Part shown: positions 1 to 55,821 of the stretch, one piece after another | Layout of the letters: the number at the start of each line of letters is the position of its first letter | Numbering within the stretch: position 1 is the stretch's first letter | Source: Sphingomonadales bacterium | GTDB lineage: Bacteria; Bacteroidota; Bacteroidia; NS11-12g; UBA955 | Length of the DNA: 61,793 nt | NCBI GenBank assembly: GCA_016872175.1 | Contig: VHBA01000008.1 | Location: forward strand, 1-61,793 | Reading direction: 5' to 3' | Made by a program: the position numbers and the translations under genes | Notes under the pieces: generated by a model | The model's input: only the letters and a program-made list of their open reading frames with translations | Databases searched by the model: none | Told to the model about the DNA's origin: nothing

Positions 1-1957
1 CTTCCGTAACGGAAACGGCTGCTGGCATAGCATAGCGTAAGGGCCTTCTCAGCGCGGGTTATGGCCACATAAAACAGACGCCTTTCTTCCTCAAGATCAG
101 CCCGCGATGTTAATGCCATTTGAGAAGGGAAGAGGTTTTCTTCCAATCCGCCAATAAATACATGCGGAAATTCCAGACCCTTGCTGCTGTGGATGGTCAT
201 CATACTCACGCAGTCGCGGTCAGGATCTTTGTCTTTCTGTTCATCGGTGTAAAGAGCAACCTCTTCCAGAAAGTTGGCCAGTGTTTTTTCCTTTTCGCTT
301 TCATCGTCTTCCGTAAACTCCTGTATACCATTTAGCAATTCAGTTACGTTCTCATATCGGCTGATGCCCTCAACTGTTTTATCATCATACAGGGTTTTGA
401 GAAGGGTGGTTTGTTTGGCCACATGGGTAGCCAGCTCAAAGGCACTGTGGGTGGTGGTCATAGCCATGAAACTCTTCATCATCATGGCGAAATTTTCCAC
501 CCTGGGCGCGCCGGTTCCTAAATCAGGATAATTGCGTGCATTGGCCACAATATCCCAGATTCCGTTTTTGTGCTCTGATGCCAGAAATAACAGGCGGTTT
601 ACTGTGGTATCGCCAATACCCCTGGCGGGATAATTGATGATGCGTTTCAGTGCCTCCTCATCGTTGGGATTTACCGTTAAACGAAGGTAAGAAAGCAGGT
701 CTTTGATTTCCTTTCGCTGATAGAAGCTGGTTCCGCCGTAAATGCGGTAATCAATGCTTTGTCTGCGCAAAGCTTCTTCAAAACTCCGACTTTGGCTGTT
801 GGTGCGGTATAAAATGGCGAAAGCCTTATTTGGAAGGTGTTTCTGGTTTTTTTGTTCAATAATCTGCTGGGCTACAAAGCGGGCTTCGTCGCTATCGGTG
901 GCAGAACGTACCACTTTTATTTTATCGCCGGTTTCATTGGCAGTCCAAACCTCTTTTTCCAGCTGTTTTTTGTTGTTTTTTATTACGCTGGATGCGGCAT
1001 TCACGATGTTTCGCGTGCTTCGGTAATTCTGTTCCAGTTTTACGGTAAAAAATTCTGTTCCAGTTTTACGGTAAAAACATCCGGATAATCGCGGTTAAAG
1101 TTGAGGATATTCTGGATGTTGGCACCCCGAAAAGCATAAATACTTTGTGCATCGTCACCCACCACGCAGATATTCTGGTGCACTGCCGCAATGCGCTTGG
1201 TAATCATGTACTGCACCGTGTTTGTATCCTGGTACTCATCAACCATCACATATTTAAAGCGGTGTTGCCATTTGTGGCAAACATCCGGGTGCTTTTCAAG
1301 AAGTATGTAGGTGTTTATTAGAATGTCATCAAAATCCATGGCACCTGCCCTAAAGCAACGCTCGGTGTAAGCCGCGAAAATATCTCCAAACTTGGGGCGG
1401 TTGGCGTTTTTATCCTGTTGGTTCAACTCTTCGTTGCGGCTGTAGGCAGCTGCCGTAATCAGGTTGTTTTTTGCCATACTGATGCGCCCCAGCACCATGC
1501 CCGGTTTATAGGTTTTGTCATCCAGGTTCAGCTCTTTCAGGATTGTTTTGATGAGGCTTTTGCTGTCGTCGGTATCGTAGATGGTGAAATTGGATGGATA
1601 GCCCAGTTTTTCGGCTTCCTGTCTGAGAATTCTGGCAAATACGCTGTGGAAAGTTCCCATCCACAGGCTTTTGGCAGCCGGCCCCACCAGGTTTTCAATG
1701 CGGTTTCGCATTTCGCGGGCTGCCTTGTTGGTGAATGTAAGCGACAAAATGCTGAAAGGATCCGCGCCTTCGTTTAGGAGATGGGCAATTCTGAAAGTGA
1801 GTACACGCGTTTTCCCTGAGCCGGCACCGGCTATAATCATAACTGGTCCGTCAATATGGGTTACTGCCTGGCGTTGCGGCTCGTTCAGTTTTTCCAGGTA
1901 TGGCGGAATGTCGTCGTTGTCGTTTTGGTCGGGCCAGCGCATAAAAAAGAACCACAA
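1..1957 (-). pseudogene. uvrD: UvrD/PcrA-type DNA helicase, 3' end outside window, frame broken by a 26-bp tandem duplication
   Basis: ATP-dependent superfamily 1A 3'-5' helicase that unwinds DNA in repair and replication restart. The N-terminal part (1040-1957) shows Walker A AGAGSGKT at residues 43-50, the Walker B region VDEYQDTN and motif III GDDAQSIYAFRGA. It stops early after LEQN, because 26 bp are repeated in tandem at 1025-1076. In the next frame the protein resumes with LEQNYRSTRNI and continues to base 1 with motif V (MTIHSSKGLEFPHVF) and motif VI (YVAITRAEKALTL). Without one repeat copy the reading frame is continuous. The C-terminal tail lies beyond the window. The start is uncertain: the ATG at 1957 or the one five codons later at 1942. 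Identification is firm; whether the gene is really broken is doubtful, since the lesion looks like an assembly fault. Confidence 0.9.
1025..1076. repeat. Exact 26-bp tandem duplication in uvrD
   Basis: Two identical head-to-tail copies, 1025-1050 and 1051-1076, each beginning AATTCTGTTCC. The insertion adds 26 bp (2 mod 3), so it shifts the helicase frame. Deleting one copy restores the protein. Confidence 0.95.
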
Positions 1958-6873: not shown

Positions 6874-7755
6874 ATGCAAAAGGACAAGGGGTTTCGTCGC
6901 AGGGTAGTAACGCTGATTATTGTGGTACTGCTTACGGCGGCTGTGGTAGCGGTTTATTTGGCCTATGGCTTTCATTCGCGAAGCAACTTACCCCTTATTG
7001 TGCCCAAAAATGTAACCTGGTTTTATCACTTTCAAAGTAGAAGTGTGGATGAGGCAGCACGTAAATCGGCAGACAGTCGCCCATTGTATTATGATAGTTT
7101 TTATTATACACTAGTAAAATTACCTGTTTTACATAATGTGAAAGATGCAGGACAGCCCGGAATTTACCTGATGACGGATATTGTTCTATTTGCTGATTCT
7201 AAGGGATGGTATACGGCACTTACCGTTACTTCTGAAGAAAAACTTAATACTTTTTGCAAGGATAATGTGCCCGCTGACCTAGTAGAGAAACCGGTTGAAA
7301 AACCTGAATTTACCTATGTGAAATCTAAGACCCGTAATCTTTATTTTGCCTATAAACACAAAGCCTGTGTGTTTTACGTCCCCTCGGATACTTCATTAAA
7401 TATCGCTGCTGCTGAGGAAGCCTTGAAAGCAGTTTTCACCCAAAAAGACAATAGTATCTATAACAATCAGGCCCTGCAGCGTATTTATGATAAAGATTGT
7501 CAGATAGTTTTTTGGGGTGAAGGAATAGGGCATGGTGTGCATCTGGATGCAGGTTATGCTCAATTCCATTATACAGATTCCGTGCGAAATAGCCGACCGA
7601 TGTCTCCACTTTACCTTTTCAACCAAGCAGGTATAAAGTATTCTGAATCTGAAGTGGAGCGTATATTAACCAAAAACAATCAAATAAAATCTCGTGATTA
7701 TCTGAATCAGACATTCAGAGCGATGTATTACTTCCTTAAACCTTTTGTAAAATGA
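6874..7755 (+). CDS. Membrane-anchored protein of unknown function, coupled to the metH module
   Basis: A 293-residue protein with a short basic N-terminus (KDKGFRRR), one transmembrane helix at about residues 11-33 and a large domain that should face the periplasm. I do not recognise the family. The domain has an alternating pattern typical of a mixed alpha/beta fold and resembles the general layout of DUF4836-type anchored proteins, but I see no diagnostic motif. Its stop overlaps the start of the homocysteine methyltransferase gene (ATGA, 4 bp), so the two are translationally coupled. A functional link to methionine synthesis is possible but unproven. Confidence 0.75.
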
Positions 7756-51507: not shown

Positions 51508-52059
51508 TTACGATCCCATTTTGCGGGGCGTGGTGGTTTTGGCTTTTACACCACCGGTGGGCTTGGGAGCCGAGGTTTTTACCTTTTTGGGTGCAGCTGC
51601 CTTGCCTGTGGTTTTTTCTGCGGGTTTGTCGCCACTGCTACCCTCTTCGGTGCTTTCTTCCTCTTCCTGTCCCAGTTTGCTCCAGTCCAGCAGGCCTTTG
51701 ATAATGCCATACCAGCTAAACAGCTTCTTCATGTCACCGGGATAAACCTTTTCGCGGTCGTAACTGGGAAGTACCTTGCCCATATAGGCTTTGATTTCGT
51801 CGTTATCGGCATTGGAAGCGGGCGGGTTGGAACCTGCTTCATCCAGCGATTTCAGCTGCTGAAGCACCTGCCACAATTTGGTTTCGCCTTCGTCGGTAAA
51901 CATGGCAATATCTGCCAGTACGCTCACACGCTGCTGCAGGGTGGTGGCAAATTTCTTGCCTGTGCCAATGGTTTCAACAATTAAACCGGTTTTGTTTCTT
52001 CCGATGATTTTGTGCAGGCCGGGAACACCCGATACCGAAACGATGTCTTTCAATTCCAT
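51508..52059 (-). CDS. DUF5606 family protein
   Basis: 183 residues from ATG 52059 (MELKDIVSVSGVPGLHKI), which fits the family better than the upstream ATG at 52068. The N-terminal domain of about 130 residues (GLIVETIGTGKKF, RVSVLADIAMFT, VLPSYDREKVYPGDMKKLFSWYGII) is the conserved part. The tail is low complexity, acidic then Lys/Thr/Pro-rich, and likely disordered. Function unknown. Upstream (51254-51507) I see no gene. Confidence 0.8.
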   Translation of the reverse strand: MELKDIVSVSGVPGLHKIIGRNKTGLIVETIGTGKKFATTLQQRVSVLADIAMFTDEGETKLWQVLQQLKSLDEAGSNPPASNADNDEIKAYMGKVLPSYDREKVYPGDMKKLFSWYGIIKGLLDWSKLGQEEEESTEEGSSGDKPAEKTTGKAAAPKKVKTSAPKPTGGVKAKTTTPRKMGS

Positions 52060-52184
52060 GTGGGGCAAATTTCGGGTTTTATGGGCATACCTGCAAATGG
52101 ATGGAACTTATTGAGAAATGAATATACAAAAAAAAGGTGACATTTCCAAATTAATCCTTCAGAATTTGGCAGGAAACAATCGTG

Positions 52185-53375
52185 TTAACTGAGTTTGCGG
52201 ATACTCAAATACTGAATCAGCCACACGACAGACAAGGCAGCCACCGCACTAATAATGGTAAGCGGATTTATACCTGCAGTAATGTTAAAACCAAATTTTC
52301 CGAGATAATCTGCCACCATGCTTTTAATAAACCAAACCAAAGCTGATGAAGTGACAATAATGACGGTGTAAATGATGCCTATATTGACGGAATACCAGTT
52401 GATGATATGTTTTCGCGGAACACCCAGCAGCAGCAAGGTGTCGATTTCATATTTTGCTTTGTTTATGGAAAGCAATACATAGAGGATGGTAGAAAAGAAG
52501 GCGAGGAACAGGATAACAATTCCCAGAATTCCCACGGCTACCAAAATCATTTCGAGCAGGAAGGCAAATTTGCTTGTCATCAGCCTGCTTTCGTTGGTTT
52601 CCCAGTTTTTTTCTTTGATTAGCTTATACAATTCGCCTGATTTACTTTGGTCAATTTCAACAATCAGACGGCCTTTTTTTTCTTTTTCGGTAGTTGGTGA
52701 TAATGCGTTATTGGTAATGTCCATGAAGTTTTTTGGAACCAAAACCGAGTTGAGCCGCTGGGAGTATCCAACTACGCGGCCGGAATATTCCTTTAAACCG
52801 GTGCCTCCGGTTAATCGCAGTTTGAACCTTGCCATTTTAATGGTGTTGGGAGAGATGAGCGGCAGGCCTCTGGCCGGAGCGAAGGTGAAGTTATACAGGT
52901 TAATAAAATCGGCAGGTAATATCAGTGGAATGGATTCCTGACCTTCTTTCCAGCCCCAGTCTTCGGGCAAATTATCGATAAACCTATCATCAACAGCTTC
53001 AAAAAATAGTTCGGTTCTGATTCCCGGACTGTAATTGCCCATGGATAATTCCGCTAGTACATTGAAGCGGTTGGCGGTGAAAGATCCAACGTTCTGAACC
53101 GATGGCAGCTTTTTAATGTCCTCAATGTCATCAGCGCTAAATGCAGAAATGCCTCCGCTAAGCGTATTTAAAGCTGATATTTTTTTATTGATGATTATAT
53201 ATTGTTTCCCAAAATCATTTTTAGGCTCTTTGAAAAGACTCTTGTATTCAAAATAAATCTGAACAGCGAGCGACAGCAACAAAACTCCTATAAACGTGCC
53301 TGCAATACCACCAATCAGTTGTTTTGGATTCTGGGTTTTGCTCAGTAATTTATGTAAAATGCGTTTTGAGCTCAT
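52185..53375 (-). CDS. FtsX-like ABC transporter permease
   Basis: 396 residues with the MacB/FtsX layout: one N-terminal helix (about 21-41), a large extracytoplasmic domain (about 42-270) and three C-terminal helices (about 275-305, 325-350, 370-392). The domain sequence is not one I recognise. Such permeases act as dimers and either drive lipoprotein or peptide movement by mechanotransmission or regulate cell-wall hydrolases. It overlaps the stop of the ATPase gene by one base (53375) and lies third in the DUF4836-ATPase-permease unit. Confidence 0.82.
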   Translation of the reverse strand: MSSKRILHKLLSKTQNPKQLIGGIAGTFIGVLLLSLAVQIYFEYKSLFKEPKNDFGKQYIIINKKISALNTLSGGISAFSADDIEDIKKLPSVQNVGSFTANRFNVLAELSMGNYSPGIRTELFFEAVDDRFIDNLPEDWGWKEGQESIPLILPADFINLYNFTFAPARGLPLISPNTIKMARFKLRLTGGTGLKEYSGRVVGYSQRLNSVLVPKNFMDITNNALSPTTEKEKKGRLIVEIDQSKSGELYKLIKEKNWETNESRLMTSKFAFLLEMILVAVGILGIVILFLAFFSTILYVLLSINKAKYEIDTLLLLGVPRKHIINWYSVNIGIIYTVIIVTSSALVWFIKSMVADYLGKFGFNITAGINPLTIISAVAALSVVWLIQYLSIRKLS

Positions 53376-54019
53376 TAAATTATTAAAGAAATAAAATCAT
53401 TTTGAACGAATCGCTTATCCAATCCGGTGATAATCAGTCCTGCATTTCGTCTGCGGCATTCTTCCGTAATCAGCAACCTTGCCGCTTCCATGTTTTCCGA
53501 ATCCAAATGGCTGAAAGGCTCATCCAGCATTAGCCAGCGGAAATTTCTGTTTAAGGCGCGGATGATAGCAACCCGTTGTTTCTGTCCGTAGGATAAAAAC
53601 CGGGCTTTGGTGTCCATTTTTTCCTCGATTTTCAGTTTGCTGCTCCATTCTCCAATGGGGAATTCTTCGGTTTTATGGGGTGTGAACGAATCCAGAATGC
53701 CGATATTTTCCTGCATAGTCAGCTCATCAAAGAGTTTTAAATCCTGATAGACAGTGCTGATCTTTTGGTTGCGAATGGAAACCCATTCATCCACACCCGC
53801 ATTTTTCAAAGGCTTACCGTTAAATGATATTTCTCCTTCAAAATCTTTTCTGTAACCGTTAAGAATGCCGATGAGCGTGGATTTACCACTACCGGATGGG
53901 GAAATTACCTGATAGAATTTTCCGCATTCCAGTTCAATCTGCTGATTCCAGACAGATTCCGGATTGATAATCCGAATGGGATTGGGTTTTACCTGATTCA
54001 GGATAAATGAATCTTCCAT
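53375..54019 (-). CDS. ABC transporter ATP-binding protein, H-loop histidine missing
   Basis: 214 residues, at the short end for the family. Walker A PSGSGKST (41-48), Q-loop Gln92 in VYQDLKLF, signature LSYGQKQR (142-149), Walker B RWLMLDE (161-167) and D-loop SHLD (170-173) are intact. The switch region, expected to read xxTHD, is IITGLDKRF (about 196-204) with no histidine. Without that residue ATP hydrolysis is usually impaired, though some ABC proteins use degenerate switches. The best guess is a MacB/LolD/FtsE-like partner for the permease that follows. It begins 51 nt after the DUF4836 gene. Confidence 0.86.
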   Translation of the reverse strand: MEDSFILNQVKPNPIRIINPESVWNQQIELECGKFYQVISPSGSGKSTLIGILNGYRKDFEGEISFNGKPLKNAGVDEWVSIRNQKISTVYQDLKLFDELTMQENIGILDSFTPHKTEEFPIGEWSSKLKIEEKMDTKARFLSYGQKQRVAIIRALNRNFRWLMLDEPFSHLDSENMEAARLLITEECRRRNAGLIITGLDKRFVQNDFISLII

Positions 54020-54070
54020 ACGGAATCAATTGTTTTGAGCCAACACGAAACGGAGAAGAAAATACTGCTT

Positions 54071-55795
54071 TTATTGCACGTATTCAACTGCGGTGTCGTA
54101 TACAGCGGCAGGCTCTTCTTCCATGTAGGGTGTCTCTTCGGTCGTTGCAGAATTTGAGTCAAACAGATTGTCAAAATCACCCAGCTCAAGAATTCCGTTA
54201 ACCAGCCTGTAGAGGCTATTACCTTCTCCCTTCTTGAGATTCAGACGCACAACACTTTTGTCGTTGTCTGTGGATACCATCGTCAAGTCCTGCATCATTC
54301 CCATAAAGTTTGATGCTTTCTTAGACATTTTACCGCCCATGGATTCGAGTGGGTAATCATCAGGGTTGAGGCTCAGGTAAAAAGCCATGGCATTTTCCGT
54401 GAGTGTTTTTGTGATGTTTTCGTTGGATGGTTTTTGCCAGGGGTTGCCATTTTTTATGTTGGCAGCTTTTGGATCCGTAGAAATAATCAATCTGTCATTC
54501 TGAGGCACAATGTACATGTCGCCCAATTCTGAATTGATGGAATAAACGCCACCGTCTGATTTAATTTGATAGTTGTTGCTTGCCATAAATTCAATTATCT
54601 TTTTTATATCGGAAGGCTTTGAAATGCCCAGCTGCAAATTGAAAACGGGCATCATTCTTTTTCTTTTTACCTCATACATTTCAAATGTTTCATAATCCAT
54701 GTCCATTTCTGTAACTTCTATTTCTTTGAATTCGGAAACAGAGACCGCAAATTCTCCAGTTAGCATTTTCAGGATATCCTTCATGGTGTAGTCCGGAATA
54801 ACAACCTCATTAATGTCCTCATTCCCGACCACCGATTCGGTCATTTGTATCAGTGTTTGTGCATCCAGGCTGGCACCAAAAGCGCCTACTGATTTGCCGT
54901 TGGAGGTGAGGTAATCGGTATATTTTTTATCAAGATTTCCTTTTAATAATTTATCAACTTTTTCCGGATTTTCATAATATACGAAGCTGTTCAAATCAAC
55001 GGAAGCGTCTTCAAAATTCAAATGGGCAGAAAATCCATCCATGTTTTTGATAGATTCCAAAGCCCGAGCATTATTCTTGCTTAATTCCTTCAACCCAACA
55101 TTGTTATTGAGGATTTTTACAATTTGATCCATATTGACGAAAAAGTCAACGTCTCCGCTGTTTTTCACGAACTGGCCAAAGCCCTTGGTCTCATATATGT
55201 TGTTGGTTTTCTCAAGGCTGAGTATTTTTTCGGCATAATTGGAAATATTGGTTTCATTTTTGTAACCTTCTTTGAACGTTATAACGAGCACATCGTTATT
55301 CCAGGCAAAAGCATGCTCTCTGTCATTTTCTTCAGAAGGGTAGGCTTTATTCATGTCTTTGTCTTCTCTGAAGGTGTAATCTGCTCCAGCCGATTCACCA
55401 ATGTTTTCAATGAGTTTTTTAATATTTTCCTTGTTGTCTACGGCAAGTAAAATACCACCTTGCATGTTGTTGACCTCGTCTTCATCGAGGCTAAAAAACA
55501 CGACGGGATCTACTTTGAAATCAACCCCGGATTTATCGGGCGACTCCATCACTTCTTTAAAGAATTTTGGTGCTTCATCTTTTATTTTGTCCATTGCATC
55601 TGCAACAACATCTTGCTTTTTAATTTTCTCGAAGTCCATTTTTTTGAATAGACTCACAATGCTTACTTTTCCTACTGCAATGGATTCTTTGGGTACATAG
55701 GCATACAGTTTGTTTTTGCTGTCATTGAAGAACCAAATGGCACCGGCGATTCCTGTAATCGCTACAATGGCAATAATGAGGGTTTTCTTATTCAT
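54071..55795 (-). CDS. DUF4836 family membrane-anchored protein
   Basis: 574 residues from ATG 55795, the start favoured by a -7 promoter box at 55814-55821 that excludes an upstream ATG at 55816. One N-terminal transmembrane segment (KKTLIIAIVAITGIAGAIWFF), then a large domain of about 530 residues built from two similar halves: KLYAYVPKESIAVGKVSI early on, IPDYTMKDILKMLTGEFAVSVSEF in the centre. Such sequences are annotated DUF4836 and have no known function. A very acidic tail (TTEETPYMEEEPAAVYD) closes the protein. It heads the ABC unit and may be its extracytoplasmic partner. Confidence 0.8.
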   Translation of the reverse strand: MNKKTLIIAIVAITGIAGAIWFFNDSKNKLYAYVPKESIAVGKVSIVSLFKKMDFEKIKKQDVVADAMDKIKDEAPKFFKEVMESPDKSGVDFKVDPVVFFSLDEDEVNNMQGGILLAVDNKENIKKLIENIGESAGADYTFREDKDMNKAYPSEENDREHAFAWNNDVLVITFKEGYKNETNISNYAEKILSLEKTNNIYETKGFGQFVKNSGDVDFFVNMDQIVKILNNNVGLKELSKNNARALESIKNMDGFSAHLNFEDASVDLNSFVYYENPEKVDKLLKGNLDKKYTDYLTSNGKSVGAFGASLDAQTLIQMTESVVGNEDINEVVIPDYTMKDILKMLTGEFAVSVSEFKEIEVTEMDMDYETFEMYEVKRKRMMPVFNLQLGISKPSDIKKIIEFMASNNYQIKSDGGVYSINSELGDMYIVPQNDRLIISTDPKAANIKNGNPWQKPSNENITKTLTENAMAFYLSLNPDDYPLESMGGKMSKKASNFMGMMQDLTMVSTDNDKSVVRLNLKKGEGNSLYRLVNGILELGDFDNLFDSNSATTEETPYMEEEPAAVYDTAVEYVQ

Positions 55796-55813: not shown

Positions 55814-55821
55814 CAAATTTA
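55814..55821 (-). promoter_or_regulatory. -7 element TAAATTTG upstream of the DUF4836-ABC unit (minus strand)
   Basis: A perfect TAnnTTTG match on the minus strand, 18 nt before the ATG at 55795. It probably drives all three genes of the unit. Confidence 0.5.

Follow-up and report, generated by a model that had tools for sequence, protein, structure and literature searches.

What do three adjacent minus-strand genes, encoding a protein of the DUF4836 family, an ATP-binding cassette (ABC) ATPase and an FtsX-type permease, do for a member of the Bacteroidota? The genes lie between positions 52,185 and 55,795 of the window, the whole 61,793-nucleotide stretch of contig VHBA01000008.1 that was analyzed (assembly GCA_016872175.1, deposited as Sphingomonadales bacterium). 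An earlier note on this DNA had described them as an uncharacterized unit, and the open reading frames (ORFs) are arranged as it stated, with 51 nucleotides between the first two genes and a 1-base overlap between the second and third. The best explanation as a whole, to which we assign a probability of about 0.5, is a type VII ABC complex with a dedicated membrane-tethered DUF4836 partner, probably acting on a lipid or lipidated substrate. The parts of this reading differ in strength. The unit almost certainly belongs to the type VII ABC architecture, and DUF4836 is very probably the functional partner of the ABC complex; that the substrate is a lipid or lipidated molecule is a tentative proposal, and the claim of a complex is much firmer than that of a lipid role.

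Conservation of the three-gene unit

Among 58 related genomes, the permease was detected in 16 (a count that includes the query genome), and the order DUF4836, ATPase, permease is constant in every locus with sufficient contig, while the flanks vary. When the permease family profile was run over a phylum sample of 395 Bacteroidota genomes, 11 full-length matches above 250 bits were obtained, the query included, and the next best match scored 36 bits. Nine of the 10 new loci have the triad and in the tenth (L070) the contig stops at the ATPase; all nine complete loci from two other families carry it. In this sample DUF4836 is present in 11 of 11 permease genomes versus 6 of the 384 others.

A scan with peptide patterns from the single permease returned 106 stretches, none of them a relative, and the sequences of alignment A3 were too diverse to yield search patterns. 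Searching species genomes by pattern yielded more than 450 permease relatives, of which the best 80 loci were analyzed; they span Bacteroides, Phocaeicola vulgatus ATCC 8482, Prevotella, Capnocytophaga, Cyclobacteriaceae and Algoriphagus. Upstream DNA sufficed at 77 loci, all from other species, and these comprise 64 triads (62 assigned by script and two counted by hand, namely L112, in which the ATPase ORF is truncated, and L148, in which the permease ORF is over-long and broke the overlap rule), 11 DUF4836–permease pairs and 2 permeases alone, and DUF4836 lies on the same strand, just 5' of the ATPase or permease, in 75 of them (at L142 it was recognized by eye). Conserved adjacency had been set beforehand by the earlier note as one test of its idea, and these loci provide it. 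Furthermore, the permease is found in 83 and DUF4836 in 86 of 121 Bacteroidaceae-family genomes, with 81 encoding both, 2 the permease only, 5 DUF4836 only and 33 neither (Fisher p = 5e-22, a value that ignores shared ancestry), and DUF4836 lies within 3 kb of 77 of the 84 permease genes in this set. The triad arrangement is far beyond chance, and the unit is real.

Within the unit, DUF4836 and the permease form the tightest pair, since in several Prevotella they stand together without an intervening ATPase, while the family ATPase is found elsewhere, beside rsmE. The rsmE neighbourhood is the site of the whole unit in P. vulgatus, and the simplest reading of the Prevotella loci is that DUF4836 and the permease have relocated jointly. 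Loss of the ATPase was the first reading of these pairs, and it was rejected once genome searches had located a family ATPase at another site in every genome except two.

The genes that flank the unit change from lineage to lineage. In P. vulgatus (L138, 2203–8634) the row consists of an MFS-type transporter, a bifunctional nuclease, RsmE, DUF4836, the ATPase, the permease and UPF0047, and the two genes upstream of the unit recur in many other Bacteroidales. In the genus of the window and one relative (L023, 5508–11077; L028, 5736–11632), the flanks are a BPD-type permease, a hexapeptide transferase and a family-2 glycosyltransferase. Three loci (L089, L113 and L116) have a tandem pair of DUF4836 paralogues 5' of a single permease. 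In addition, a permease-free arrangement (L185, 1670–5650; L187, 2098–6004; L188, 3209–7144) combines a DUF4836-like protein of 620–680 residues, a companion of 400–470 residues and a small lipoprotein.

Predicted architecture of the three proteins

The AlphaFold model of the permease (mean predicted local distance difference test, pLDDT, 88.9) has four helices, with an extracytoplasmic domain of about 210 residues between the first and the second. Its structural alignment is topped by LolE, taken from an Lpp-bound complex structure (Z 17.7, 351 residues), followed by YtrF, LolC, FtsX, MacB, YbbP and BceB, with Z values of about 10–15 for LolC, MacB, FtsX and YbbP; the extracytoplasmic domain alone matches LolE (Z 9.0) and also MacB and LolC. 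In the Foldseek search, MacB is the first-ranked match to the permease. At the sequence level only the C-terminal membrane part is recognizable, and a profile comparison with the four MacB/LolC/E-like permeases of the host genome gave a weak match (residues 181–355, probability 37%, E 3.5e-4) that extends into the periplasmic domain. Most likely, the extracytoplasmic domain is a divergent version of the MacB/LolC/LolE-type (type VII) fold. The earlier description of an FtsX-type permease with an unrecognized extracytoplasmic domain therefore stands for the type and for Pfam, and gives way at the level of the predicted fold, which is recognizable as MacB/LolE-type. This domain holds 27 of the 34 permease positions conserved in at least 90%, as would be expected if this is where the work is done.

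The sequence models of LolC/E, MacB and FtsX do not claim the permease, and, given also the conserved neighbourhood, the proposal that the three genes form a type VII unit not described before, with DUF4836 as its extracytoplasmic partner, survives. LolC/E-like, MacB-like and FtsX permeases are encoded elsewhere in the host genome, so the unit exists alongside them.

The ATPase, a PF00005 protein of 214 residues as first described, belongs to a family with an unusual catalytic signature. In 88 family members the Walker A motif, the Q-loop, the signature Ser-Gly, the Walker B Asp-Glu and the D-loop Asp are invariant, whereas the switch (H-loop) histidine is missing from all 88, and the D-loop reads SHLD or a near variant in every one, with its histidine invariant. 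The unlinked Prevotella ATPases retain the same signature, lacking the switch histidine and keeping that of the D-loop, and the switch histidine is present in all nine other parsable ABC ATPases of the host genome. From this pattern we infer that the D-loop histidine may replace the switch histidine. The window ATPase falls below every NCBIfam cut-off among the models listed, including those for LolD (TIGR02211, 98 bits versus 307.75) and FtsE (TIGR02673, 96.8 bits versus 264.85).

The DUF4836 protein of the window is predicted to consist of an N-terminal membrane anchor (residues ~7–24), a periplasmic domain (~26–545) and a disordered C-terminal tail. Its hydrophobic N-terminal segment agrees with the membrane anchoring claimed earlier. 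Judged by sequence, the anchor is a lipobox in most members from Bacteroidales and Capnocytophaga, and elsewhere, the window protein included, a hydrophobic, probably transmembrane, segment, which argues for an inner-membrane location of the proteins anchored in this way. The AlphaFold model (mean pLDDT 86.6, predicted TM-score 0.85) is a two-lobed alpha/beta structure that contains no long coiled coil, and no enzyme domain was recognized in the protein. The closest solved fold is TP0453 (VIA Z 9.3–10.4, four entries), whose best alignment reaches Z 10.4 over 215/247 residues, and which is the only match with a Foldseek E as low as ~1e-3. TP0453 is an outer-membrane-associated lipoprotein of Treponema pallidum that reportedly senses and integrates into membranes via amphipathic helices and is said to raise membrane permeability. 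Like many DUF4836 members it is a lipoprotein, but it has about 250 residues versus about 500. The N-terminal lobe of DUF4836 also resembles the extracytoplasmic domains of PknH and TiME, and DcrB (Z 6–8). A sequence search of the PDB returned only designed propellers and chance rows, with no sequence relation to TP0453, and no convincing match came from the viral structure library. A LolA fold was considered and rejected, the match to RseB being confined to RseB residues 220–315 and LolA itself appearing at rank 29 with TM-scores of 0.07 and 0.18.

The predicted fold suggests that DUF4836 is a membrane- or lipid-interacting partner and not a passive client. Of the earlier proposal of an extracytoplasmic client, the partnership is retained on the strength of the conserved linkage, while the client role is not, in view of the permease-free relatives and the lipid- or membrane-type fold.

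Proposed mechanism and competing explanations

Type VII ABC machines relay ATP-driven motion across the membrane, and their function is defined by a partner protein (PMC12646458). The gene anatomy fits a homodimeric machine whose periplasmic domains act on a tethered DUF4836. Two ATPase and two permease subunits would form the inner-membrane machine, ATP binding and turnover in the cytoplasm would move the extracytoplasmic domains (mechanotransmission), and these would act on DUF4836 anchored alongside, probably through a transmembrane helix in the window genome and a lipid in Bacteroidales. Extraction of lipid-like substrates has been proposed for several type VII systems, including YbbAP-TesA, which likewise combines a type VII ABC complex with a dedicated periplasmic partner (PMC12646458). 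YbbP differs in having 10 helices versus four in the permease of the unit, and TesA is a hydrolase, whereas DUF4836 has no recognized enzyme domain. A more specific scheme, in which the lipid or lipidated molecule is moved to DUF4836 as a tethered acceptor and the D-loop histidine replaces the switch histidine by acting across the dimer, is distinctly doubtful.

Several observations weigh against the proposed complex and its lipid role. Two metagenome-assembled genomes of Prevotella, possibly incomplete, have the DUF4836–permease pair and no match to the family ATPase; given their origin, they are not evidence of ATP independence. At two loci (L122 and L130) the upstream DNA, about 2.5 and 6.9 kb respectively, contains no ATPase or DUF4836 gene to accompany the permease. 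DUF4836 relatives also occur where the permease is absent, in one lineage close to hisS, so the reverse link looks looser. The mean column identity of DUF4836 is 20%, versus a conserved permease domain, an odd contrast if the two share a tight interface. The TP0453 match is modest (7–8% identity, root-mean-square deviation 5.8), and function does not follow from a shared fold. Both predicted models are monomers, from which the interaction is an extrapolation, and the missing switch histidines could mean that ATP turnover is slow or absent.

Two live rivals are substrate-free regulation and a second route for lipoproteins. In the first, an FtsEX-like regulator, the permease would allosterically switch DUF4836 or its binding target, and no lipid or lipoprotein substrate would be involved; we consider this possible, though unlikely. 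Switching of this kind, as in FtsEX with EnvC, occurs among type VII systems (PMC12646458), and FtsEX-EnvC shares with the unit separate ATPase and permease genes, the type VII fold and an extracytoplasmic partner. DUF4836 is anchored and not a free chaperone, and ATPases without the switch histidine might serve as slow switches. However, the extracytoplasmic domain of the permease is large, of LolE/MacB size, and is not the FtsX_ECD domain (PF18075) that is present in the separate FtsX of the host; the ATPase lies far below the FtsE cut-off, the DUF4836 model offers neither a long coiled coil nor a recognized enzyme domain, and no cell-wall gene was recognized as accompanying the unit in the loci examined.

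In the second, a further Lol system would extract some of the lipoproteins destined for the outer membrane, with DUF4836 as an anchored LolA- or LolB-like acceptor, which appears improbable. The four-helix type VII permease fold, the large periplasmic domain and the separate ATPase gene are common to LolCDE/LolA and the unit, and the leading structural match to LolE with bound Lpp, the many DUF4836 members that are themselves lipoproteins and the weak Foldseek row to LolA are in line with such a role. Nevertheless, the host genome has separate LolC/E-like permeases, the ATPase is far under the LolD cut-off and lacks the switch histidine, folds other than LolA match DUF4836 better, and LolA is soluble, whereas DUF4836 is anchored. 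LolCDE also uses a pair of permeases, LolC and LolE, whereas each triad has a single permease gene, whose product therefore probably forms a homodimer; LolF variants of LolCDE have a single permease as well. Moreover, with only 11 of the 395 sampled Bacteroidota carrying it, the unit cannot be a general lipoprotein pathway.

MacAB-like efflux with DUF4836 as the exporter adaptor is highly improbable, for although MacB tops the Foldseek search and resembles the permease in both its core and its extracytoplasmic domain fold, MacB is fused to its ATPase while the two stand on separate genes here, PF12704 (MacB_PCD) gives no match, no MacA- or TolC-like partner was recognized near the unit, and no MacA-type adaptor is among the DUF4836 matches listed, which is a weak negative. 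Equally remote is the view that ATPase and permease cooperate while DUF4836 is merely co-transcribed, which agrees with the solo DUF4836 genes of the genomes examined but not with a unit kept across families despite differing flanks, with the DUF4836–permease pairs that lack the ATPase in several Prevotella, or with the near-perfect co-occurrence of the two. Since membership in LolCDE, FtsEX and MacAB each fails on at least one tested feature, the unit would represent a further type VII ABC system.

Locus layout and significance

Features of the unit in the window; positions of permease segments are residues of the predicted protein
Feature	Position	Strand	Size	Basis
DUF4836 gene	54071–55795	-	574 aa	PF16120, E 4.4e-32, 112.1 bits (cut-off 27)
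DUF4836/ATPase spacer	54020–54070	-	51 nt	sequence
ABC ATPase gene	53375–54019	-	214 aa	PF00005, E 4.1e-26
Permease gene	52185–53375	-	396 aa	PF02687 (FtsX), E 6.7e-9, 36.3 bits (cut-off 25.5)
Permease TM1	17–49			AlphaFold model
Permease extracytoplasmic domain	50–261			AlphaFold model
Permease TM2	262–306			AlphaFold model
Permease TM3	321–359			AlphaFold model
Permease TM4	371–395			AlphaFold model
TAAATTTG, putative Bacteroidota-type -7 element 5' of DUF4836	55814–55821	-		pattern match

Base 53375 is common to the ATPase and permease ORFs. A single promoter had been predicted for the three genes, and the evidence for it is divided: the candidate -7 element TAAATTTG starts at 55821, 18 nucleotides ahead of the DUF4836 ATG, but pattern inspection revealed no -33 element at the distance where it usually lies, and a sigma-70-type promoter scan at the DUF4836 start gave scores no better than shuffles. 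Downstream of the unit lie a gene for a DUF5606/DUF6852 protein (51508–52068) and then a DEAD helicase gene, and upstream a 113-residue ORF and a dicarboxylate symporter. These four neighbours bear out the statement that no lipoprotein-export or resistance gene adjoins the unit, and the flanking genes on either side are without evident tie to it. A DUF5606/DUF6852 relative is also found two genes 5' of DUF4836 in two distant genomes (L067, 236–640; L068, 279–698). Elsewhere in the window, the ORF at 6874–7755 (+) has a second, weak DUF4836-like match (7141–7515, E 7.7e-5, 21.5 bits, below the cut-off).

The function of the unit appears to be nowhere described. No mention of DUF4836 or PF16120 was found in the literature searched, which left out most subscription papers, and the parts seen of a paper on the Lol system of Bacteroidota contain no discussion of such a unit; the earlier statement that no system of this composition has been described agrees with this, short of proof. 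E. coli has a total of only four such ABC systems of type VII; three have been extensively characterized in envelope processes, and the fourth followed only in 2025 (PMC12646458). If the proposed reading is true, the unit would add another type VII ABC system, seen here only in Bacteroidota from gut and environmental sources, and DUF4836 would gain a function. The signature of the ATPase, with no switch histidine and a D-loop histidine, leads to a clear prediction on the biochemistry of ABC catalysis. About two thirds of the genomes sampled from the Bacteroidaceae family have the unit, as does Phocaeicola vulgatus, a human gut species that can be cultivated.

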